Assembly: GCA_024220505.1 (NCBI GenBank)
Contig: JAKZZE010000017.1
Span: 868,001 to 932,000, forward strand
Source: Rhizopus arrhizus
Lineage: Eukaryota > Mucoromycota > Mucoromycetes > Mucorales > Rhizopodaceae
Length of the DNA: 64,000 nt
Reading direction: 5' to 3'
Positions 8,007 to 11,060 of the stretch are shown here, piece by piece; within the stretch, counting starts at the first letter, position 1; the number at the start of each line of letters is the position of its first letter. A model generated the notes under the pieces. That model saw nothing but the letters and a program-made list of their open reading frames with translations. It had not been told where the DNA came from and did no database searches. The position numbers and the translations under genes are program-made.

Positions 8007-8129
8007 TTAGTTATCGTTTTGTATACTGATAGTGCCTTTATTTTATTATATTTAAGCTTTAAACTTCGTTAATTTCACAGTTGTTTTAGGCACTTTCATC
8101 AGCTTTATGCAGAGTGCACAGTTGCTTTA

Positions 8130-8263
8130 CAGTGTTTTAATCTAAAATGAGATGATTTAATAAAATAAATTGGACACTTTAAAAGATAAAAGAGTCGAAC
8201 GCTAATCTTTTTTGAGACAAGTGAACAAAACAAATTAAGCAATGCAGATTCTTTTTGTAGACG
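8130..8263 (+). repeat. Left terminal inverted repeat of the Fanzor element
   Basis: Its first 17 nt are identical to the reverse complement of the right end. The block 8173-8194 matches the complement of 10875-10896 over 22 nt, and 8251-8263 matches the complement of 10807-10819. Between these blocks are scattered substitutions and small indels. Similarity stops after 8263. Confidence 0.85.
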
Positions 8264-8325
8264 AAGCAATCCCTTATATTATTGTTCAAAGACTTACACT
8301 GTATCTGGGATTAATGCAGTGTTAA
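8264..8325 (-). ncRNA. Candidate guide-RNA (omega-RNA) region downstream of Fanzor
   Basis: This is the stretch between the Fanzor stop (8326) and the terminal repeat. In TnpB and in characterised Fanzors, the guide RNA scaffold overlaps or follows the 3' end of the nuclease gene and reads toward the element end. By analogy the RNA would run from here through the TIR with a guide taken from beyond 8129. No structure or transcript can be shown from sequence alone. Confidence 0.25.
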
Positions 8326-10440
8326 CTACAAAGGATTATTTGGTCTTTTTGTCTGTTGACTAGTGCTAACTGATGATGATGATATATTCTTTCTTTTAGA
8401 GCCGGTGGAGAGAGGTTTCTTCGATCTGCAGAAACGTTCTGGCCTTTCATCATTTGCACGTAGGCTAAAGAGGATGTGTCTAAAGTTTAATGTAGCAGCT
8501 ATATCACGATTCCAAAGACGACAAAGAGGAATTTTAGCAGTAGCTTCCATTGTACTGGTCACAACCTTTAAACATTGTTGGTTTTTGCACCTGAGCAGAA
8601 ATTATGAAAGTTTGTAATTTTTTTTTCTTGCATATAAAAAGCATTTACCTTAAAAGGCCATGACGATCTACAATGGGACACTTTTCTCTTTGATATGGTC
8701 TAGGGTTCTGTACTTTTTTAAACGTTTCAAGTTCACCGTTTTGGCAAGAAGGGCACATATTAGAAGTCCGACACTCGTTAAGGAGGTACACCTGGAAGCC
8801 TTCTTTGGCTAGCATTCTTCTCATTCGACGCCTCTAATGGGTTCATGATACTTTACATTTCCTGTAGACCGGTTACCAAATATTAAGATAGCATTATTCC
8901 CAAACTTCTCTCTAAGCTTATTGGCTAGCCATTTGCCAGCTTGTTGCTGATTAATGAAACTTGAGGGCTTCATTTTTCTAAAGGATAAGAGACCACCGGC
9001 ACGCTGATCTTCTTCTGCAGGGCGATCTTCATTTGAAGTAGTACGCTTTCATGACTGGGTGACTTTGGCTCTTTCTTGAGGATACTCGACAAACCTGTCT
9101 TTGTTGACAGTGGAAGATTTGAAATGCGGCAGAAAAAGCTCGGCTGCAATCACTTCGTCTCTGTTCAAGTTGTTCCTGAACTTTTTGAATTTTCTGGATT
9201 TGGTTTCGATTGCTTGTATATCCGTAAATCGTTTTATTTTCTACAGTGCTCTTTTCATGCATACAGTAAAGCAAACCTCGACGGTCAGGATGAATTAATG
9301 CACATTTGCCAACAATTCTTCTTTTCCCAACTTCTCAACGTACTGGAATTCGTCTGCTTCAATAGACTTTGACTTTCCGCTACTGCTGCCGCCTTTCCTC
9401 TTCGTATCGTAGTTTTGCTTTAATACCGACACACCTACGCCATCTGTGTATATCGTACCTCTAAACTTTATGAACTTTCTTTCTCCTTGTGGTTTCATTG
9501 CCTTTGATGTAACATCAAGAATGGCTTCCCATACTACTTCTTTATCCAAGTGGCTGATGATGGAATTCTTCAAGATTTGAGTATTTAAAATAGACGTATC
9601 ACTCGCCATGTACGATGATATGAAGCCCTTTCTTAATGGGAAGCAATTGAATGGTTTGTTTTGAAGTGCTTCGCACATGCTTGATAGTCTATAGTACGCT
9701 TTTATGCGTTTGAGAGGGTTAGCTCTGCAGTCATAATAGATCGAGCCTTTTGCAAATCGATAATTCGTCGAATATTAGTCAAAAAGATTACGGATTATAT
9801 CTAAACCATTTGAGAAAACTCCTTTAGACATATCTTCAATGTTTCTTGACGATATAGCTAGCTTAACCTTGCTTATTTGCTCTGTTATTGTCTTTACAGT
9901 TGCCGCAATCTCTTTCTCTGTTCCCCTGTTCTTCTTCATCTCGCTTTTCAGCGCCTTGATTCTTTCATTCTCCTTTATGAGCAATTAAGAAACATTCGAA
10001 CTTTGTTTCCGAATTGAAGCTTGACCCCATTCAGATAAGCAGTGACTATCTTTACCACTTCATAAGAGGCTATTTGACTAGTATACTTCATATTAACTGG
10101 CTCGTACAAGCAGCACTGAAAGCACTGGTGTCGATAGTTGAGTACTAGCCCTTTGCAAGTTCTTGATTTTGTTGAAGCTTTCTGTTTGTCTGGCTTGTAG
10201 TTATTGAGGAGGAACAAAAAGACTTTTTTAAAAAAAAGTCAACATTAATGAAATCCTCCAAGGGAAACGCAGGGTTTTTTCCAGTTCATGAATAAAGATG
10301 TACTTCAAAAAGGAGAATATATGTAACACAAGGGTATGAGCATTAGCTATAAGCGTCTTGAGTAGCGAAATATATTGTGGCTTCCGCCCAATACCAGCGA
10401 TTGAACTTTTAACTGCTATGGTCTTTAGAGGCAGTTCCAT
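8326..10440 (-). pseudogene. Decayed Fanzor (eukaryotic TnpB-like RNA-guided nuclease) gene, copy 1
   Basis: Read from 10440 down, the pieces are an N-terminal domain (SIAGIGRKPQYISLLKTL), YLNGVKLQFGNKVRMFLN, a Lys-rich helix (MLIKENERIKALKSEMK), FRGTIYTDGVGVSVLKQN, GKCALIHPDRRGLLYCM, then NKLREKFGNNAILIFG, a zinc ribbon (MCPSC ... CKNQQC) and RLWNRDIAATLNF. The last is the RuvC-III-like segment with its Asp intact. An intron with good borders (8648-8591) separates HGLLR from CKNQQC. Lesions include an in-frame stop near 9776, a stop at 9049-9051, and frameshifts near 9985-10230, 9300, 9210 and 8830. The RuvC-I-like IDPG motif reads IHPD, so the catalytic Asp is lost. Assignment to Fanzor rests on motif order and the C-terminal zinc ribbon plus NRD motif. 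It cannot make an active nuclease as it stands. Confidence 0.8.
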
Positions 10441-10806
10441 AAAGAAAAGGAAAAGAAAAAGATGAATTGACAGCATTTTTTATTACTGTTGTCATTTGTG
10501 CTATCATTGTCTTTTGATAATATATTGTCACTGCTAGAGTGGAATTACAACAATGAAACAATTCTACCTATAACCTTAAACTATATGATGATGAATAGTG
10601 ATCAAATAGTCCAATACTTCATAACATAATGTCTTGATGATTGAATTATAAGCTCCATCCCTCTTAGACATCATGAAGAAAGCGCTTATACTGTTGCCAT
10701 TTCAGATAAAATACTACAAAGCTAATGATATGTGTGCATATAGTCAGTTGCTCAATTACATTGTACTCCCCAGCAAAAGGTGGCAAATGACGGCAAGACA
10801 AAAAAA

Positions 10807-10938
10807 CGTCTACAAAAAGAATTTGCCTTGTCTAATTGGTTTTGTTCACTTGTTACAAAAAATTGGGTGTTTGTCTCTTTTATCTTTTAAAGTGTCTAAT
10901 TTACTTTATTAAATCGCCTCATTTAGATTAAAACACTG
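10807..10938 (-). repeat. Right terminal inverted repeat of the Fanzor element
   Basis: This is the reverse-complement partner of 8130-8263, ending in CACTG followed by TA at 10939-10940. An apparent open frame across 10673-10912 is explained by this repeat and is not a gene. Confidence 0.85.
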
Positions 10939-11003
10939 TATAAAAAATCGACTTTTGCTGCTAAAATCGAATTAAACTCTTTTTATTGGCTATTGTCTTC
11001 CTT

Positions 11004-11004
<1 letters not shown>

Positions 11005-11060
<56 letters not shown>
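11005..11060. repeat. 56-nt A homopolymer before MCMBP
   Basis: An uninterrupted A tract ending 43 nt upstream of the MCMBP start codon. It is a likely nucleosome-excluding promoter element, or a slippage-expanded leader tract. Its true length is uncertain. Confidence 0.6.

Follow-up and report, generated by a model that had tools for sequence, protein, structure and literature searches.

A locus in the 64,000 nucleotides of Rhizopus arrhizus DNA analysed here (the window) raised the question of how an element moves when its only gene is a decayed Fanzor nuclease, and what such a nuclease does for the element that carries it.

Borders and gene of the window element

The element extended over 2.8 kb (8130-10938) between inverted repeats (TIRs) of about 133 bp starting with CAGTG, and TA was present at both ends, a trait of Tc1/mariner transposons. 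The left arm matched the right arm at 86% in genome-wide searches, with E values of about 1e-34 to 1e-36, so that chance is excluded as the source of their likeness. Two inverted arm pairs were also found directly in the window, 8145-8212 with 10857-10924 (84%) and 8208-8263 with 10807-10862 (88%). The TIR-bounded, TA-flanked element put forward in the initial annotation, with CAGTG at both ends, was thus confirmed. A second Tc1/mariner trait, the internal DDE transposase, was missing: no transposase was seen inside the element, where the longest stop-free stretch was 159 codons, and the element is termed non-autonomous for this reason. Nor was an internal transposase seen in any copy of the family.

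Table 1. Positions of the parts of the element in the window
Feature	Position	Strand	Remarks
TA flank, Fanzor-downstream side	8128..8129		presumed target-site duplication
TIR, Fanzor-downstream (3') side	8130..8263	+	
Fanzor exon 2 relic	about 8326..8590	-	second zinc-finger half, NRD motif; lower limit inferred from L062
Fanzor intron	8591..8648	-	58 bases, GT...AG
Fanzor exon 1 relic	about 10440-8649	-	broken by stops and frame changes
TIR, Fanzor-upstream (5') side	10807..10938	-	
TA flank, Fanzor-upstream side	10939..10940		flank in Fanzor orientation ends ...TTTTTTATA; TAM-like side

The only gene was, as had been claimed, a decayed Fanzor, a disrupted Fanzor1 of two exons on the minus strand (Table 1) in which the motif series of the family was interrupted. 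A closely similar intron was present in the other 11 copies read, and exon 2 with the zinc-finger half and NRD in all 12, with residues changed in some; in copy L061, one zinc-finger cysteine, in exon 1, was changed. The spliced reading of copy L062 had 719 amino acids and the Fanzor1 motif order of D, zinc finger and RD, represented by LIDPGRRD, CPSC...CKNQQC and WNRD. When exon 1 of L062 was compared with solved chains, the relation to Fanzor1 was clear, the nearest relative being Parasitella PpFz1 (E 3e-151), followed by SpuFz1 (E 5.7e-44). A Pfam scan of the same exon gave no family at E 0.01. The homologue search gave at least 79 matches among the 7994 candidates scored, the best being 100% over 81% of the query, and PF26935 was precomputed on 68 of the 79 homologues listed. 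Judged by its sequence, the window gene belongs to Fanzor1, and RNA-guided DNA cleavage is predicted for its family.

A run of 56 A was located at 11005-11060, 66 bases to the right of the element. The LINE tail that this poly(A) suggested was rejected, the 66 intervening bases having no second genomic match among the scored candidates.

Related copies, a candidate transposase and the base before TA

The family was dispersed. At least 29 genomic places matched the window element in a genome-wide search; only the candidates of a first look were scored, so the counts from the genome searches are lower bounds. The 22-base terminus with its TA had 55 matches at up to three mismatches, compared with one for the reversed pattern. 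The initial annotation had named a lack of shared ends elsewhere in the genome as grounds for abandoning its proposal, and these matches answer the point in its favor. Twenty of the 29 loci were fetched for a frame scan, and seven had an unbroken first exon (617-639 codons between stops); in an eighth near-identical copy, L017/L065, this frame was cut to 542. The window element had 88-89% DNA identity to the full-length copies listed and on this comparison is a copy of an older lineage of the family. No usable paralogous empty site was found in the genome.

A search with the pattern TACAGTNTTTTAANCTAAANTGAGACG gave 59 matches at up to three mismatches and none for the reversed pattern, and about half of the matches were the family's own ends. 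A further match, the L078 terminus, belongs to a Tc1/mariner family of the same genome that has a DDE_3 transposase frame. It agreed with the left end of the window element at 26 of 31 bases and with copy L027 at 27 of 31, which relates the Fanzor TIRs to a transposase-bearing member. The right end of the window element, which has small deletions, agreed at only 19 of 31 bases without gaps, and this weighs against L078 as the mover. A small BLAST comparison gave 76% identity over 51 bases (E 2.8e-5), the match starting at the outer terminus in L078 and the Fanzor element alike; in the other repeat of this L078 copy, the outer 39 bases gave no match. In a survey that sampled the clade incompletely (96 of 1496 candidates scored), three of the 14 loci at least 50% identical to the L078 transposase had the TIR motif at a distance of 171-180 bases from the matched gene, where about 0.008 were expected, and it was within 250 bases at none of the other 81 loci listed. 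The remaining 11 L078-clade loci had no motif match nearby, which counts against this assignment. Taken together, an L078-clade DDE_3 transposase is the likely mover of the Fanzor element in trans. The earlier claim that the ends identify the transposase therefore held in part: a DDE_3 family with a related terminus does exist in the same genome, but the likeness is limited to the outer ~31-51 bases of the element and mobilization is what we infer from it.

Other partners were considered and rejected. L068 (G000:C4:1001480-1003540), a 1.97-kb element with fully complementary inverted arms of 324 bases, has the same outer terminus but no ORF over 97 amino acids. L076 (G000:C40:130930-132790) is a Tc1/mariner element with a 462-residue DDE_3 frame that starts with TA and TTGTATTTTTCAG and ends with ...CTGAAAAATACAA and TA. 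Its TIR was paired with open frames of 467-471 codons at seven places, so L076 was probably active recently; as a source of the Fanzor ends it was discarded because the termini are unlike (16 of 31 against L078, and no match to the ends of the window element). A deletion remnant of the Fanzor element, made up of a 42-base end and 252 internal bases, was present in four copies on C23, one of them L079 (G000:C23:1605880-1606400), each next to a transposase-like frame. These loci carry Fanzor-derived ends (L079 was the one of the four that was read). The adjacent frames, 343 bases from the motif and 36% identical to L078, were rejected as a partner: each is marked with one stop, and the repeated layout appears to be one duplicated segment.

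The base preceding the flanking TA differed between the two sides of the element. Upstream of Fanzor, 10 of 11 ends had an A there, compared with 3 of 13 downstream (Fisher p=0.0013); in the window as a whole, counting both strands, an A precedes 35% of TA sites. These counts of ends are small, and some rows were excluded. Each independent site was counted once; the six LINE-bearing copies described below entered once upstream and singly downstream, and the C11 end (L023) was included. Ends lacking terminal bases were left out (C23:226194, C9:331007, C1:1260530 and C23:268886, the last replaced by the true L063 end), as were C41:971568 (no TA), C23:647994 and C4:1310797 (doubtful), remnant L079, and motif matches with unfetched flanks (e.g. 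C34:1620295) or without TA (C19:733669). When L079 was restored, the counts were 10 of 11 and 4 of 14 (p=0.004), and when the two doubtful ends were restored as well, 11 of 12 and 5 of 15 (p=0.005). The TAM of PpFz1 is ATN (PMC11423790), and SpuFz1 loci have an extra CA on the same, upstream side (PMC10432273). The bias is read as the mark of the nuclease on the persistence of insertions; alternatively, the transposase may have a target preference that depends on orientation. By analogy with SpuFz1, the Fanzor-downstream TIR is expected to hold the scaffold of the guide RNA, with the guide taken from the flank to its left. Folding of 3' ends for a guide-RNA structure gave results no better than shuffles for all three ends folded.

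The reading that we favor, with a probability of about 0.8, is that the window element is a decayed, non-autonomous Tc1/mariner-type copy with Fanzor1 as cargo that was moved in trans by a DDE_3 transposase, and that cutting of the donor site restores the element. A transposase encoded elsewhere in the genome, most probably of the L078 clade, would cut the element at its TIRs and paste it into a TA site. In living copies, published Fanzor and TnpB biology suggests that Fanzor would take up a guide RNA from the downstream repeat and flank and cleave the donor site, once emptied, beside an ATA motif, and repair from another copy would then restore the element there. The window copy decayed after its insertion.

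Ends of the young copies

Over the aligned part, nine copies, here called young, had 97.9-100% identity to L062, and their two ends were strikingly different. The downstream end was present in all nine and, in eight, began at TA followed by TAGTG or CAGTG; the terminal bases of L061 were altered. A plain upstream TIR with TA, in unrelated sequence, was found only in L063, where the TIR is split by a LINE-type insertion. The other eight are without plain two-ended insertion ends, which counts against simple transposition. Six of the nine continued upstream into the same 0.5-kb 3' part of a LINE, mutually 99.4-100% alike, while other copies of this stretch reached at most 96% (40 of 261 candidates scored). 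L021 was truncated at reference base 637. Upstream, L060 switched shortly before the gene, at around column 391-472, to an old end with 88-90% identity to L062, and it had a different LINE junction. L060 is thus a hybrid, of the kind that gene conversion leaves, with an old upstream end and LINE flank joined to a young Fanzor gene and downstream end.

The stretch was called a LINE on the following grounds: the solo copy L067 matched zf-RVT (E 1.9e-7), the sequence resembles a protein that bears RVT_1, a poly(A) is present, and the one solo copy checked has a target duplication of 14 bases; the piece in the composite itself matched zf-RVT with E 0.014, below the cut-off. Copying of the Fanzor-LINE unit as RNA by the LINE machinery would account for the LINE 3' part with a poly(A) of 25-34 that edges three young copies. 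However, no target duplication of the LINE type was found around the Fanzor-LINE units, in contrast to the solo copy, and this route is disfavored as very improbable.

The LINE-bearing copies could instead stem from a composite DNA transposon formed by the Fanzor-downstream TIR and the right TIR of a neighboring L076-type mariner, a possibility that we hold only tentatively and at less than even odds. It explains L064 and L065 well, since both end, like L076, with ...CTGAAAAATACAA and TA, have TA followed by TAGTG or CAGTG at the opposite end and differ in their flanks on both sides; L076, moreover, holds the DDE_3 frame. The same scheme is at odds with L061 and L062, which stop at the LINE poly(A), with L066, which runs into a DIRS-like element, and with L059, where an L076-type end about 12 kb from its start is altered and without TA. 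The L076 and Fanzor termini are also unlike. The right flanks of L059 and L066 contained, beside the LINE tail, a 4.1-kb repeat with reverse-transcriptase-like and tyrosine-recombinase-like frames, which we take to be a DIRS-like element; its phage-integrase match (E 0.00015) was below the Pfam cut-off.

A third possibility is that two-ended cut-and-paste is no longer the main way in which the family moves and that the young copies arose one-sidedly, with the Fanzor-downstream end as anchor and the upstream end set where copying or repair stops. The downstream end common to all nine copies, the solitary upstream TIR and TA of L063, the continuation of six copies into the LINE tail, the old end of L060 and the truncation of L021 are what it would leave, yet we consider it unlikely: older copies, such as that of the window, appear two-ended, each end having its TA, the edge of L064 and L065 is the right TIR of a second transposon followed by TA, as composite DNA transposition would give, and conversion or deletion after insertion could account for L060 and L021. 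It is correspondingly doubtful that one-sided copying at the Fanzor-downstream, guide-RNA end drags in upstream LINE and mariner sequence, which would make the family an open-ended carrier and not a closed transposon.

Simple cut-and-paste does not predict the lopsided ends of these young copies, which are the most noteworthy part of the results; neither these ends nor the unbroken copies elsewhere are visible from one window. Because dead and unbroken copies with exact borders occur in one genome, together with a candidate transposase acting in trans and a TAM-like imprint, the role of Fanzor for its transposon can be tested by comparing strains.

Comparison with known Fanzor elements

Carriage of Fanzor by mariner-type elements, which the initial annotation had taken as known, is documented by Bao & Jurka 2013, who described TA-flanked mariner-type Fanzor1 elements that include Fanzor-only ones such as PUl-4 (PMC3627910). 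Bounded elements are found there and in PMC10432273, so the statement that exact borders are rarely available for fungal Fanzor elements was too strong. Table 1 of PMC3627910 lists four Fanzor1 families in R. oryzae RA 99-880, and the window family may therefore be among those already catalogued. Among the openly available Fanzor papers searched, PMC10711439 included, no description of its copies was found.

PUl-4-type elements resemble the window family in being Fanzor-only, with mariner-like TIRs and TA target duplications, whereas the window family is multicopy, has ~133-bp TIRs and resides in a Rhizopus genome (PMC3627910). In Spizellomyces punctatus, Saito 2023 reported SpuFz1 genes, full or partial, at 42 loci, and those that are complete lie between inverted repeats (PMC10432273). 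These are also Fanzor-only units, with extra conserved bases upstream of the 5' repeat only, CA in SpuFz1 and A in the window family, but the repeats are 30 nt long compared with ~133 here. The best solved sequence relative, PpFz1 of Parasitella parasitica, has an ATN TAM that agrees with the ATA found here (PMC11423790). L062 has no equivalent of about 105 PpFz1 residues that separate the two matched stretches, the gap falling near residues 481-491 of its exon-1 reading; a RuvC insertion of Fanzor has been reported in Parasitella and Rhizopus (PMC11423790). MCi-2 of Mucor circinelloides has a constant 3' Fanzor part and 5' regions that vary among copies, as here, but differs in being without recognizable TIRs and in having target duplications of 11-12 bp (PMC3627910). 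Fanzor1 in mariner-like elements has thus been known since 2013, and the window family is a well-bounded example with unusual ends in its young copies.
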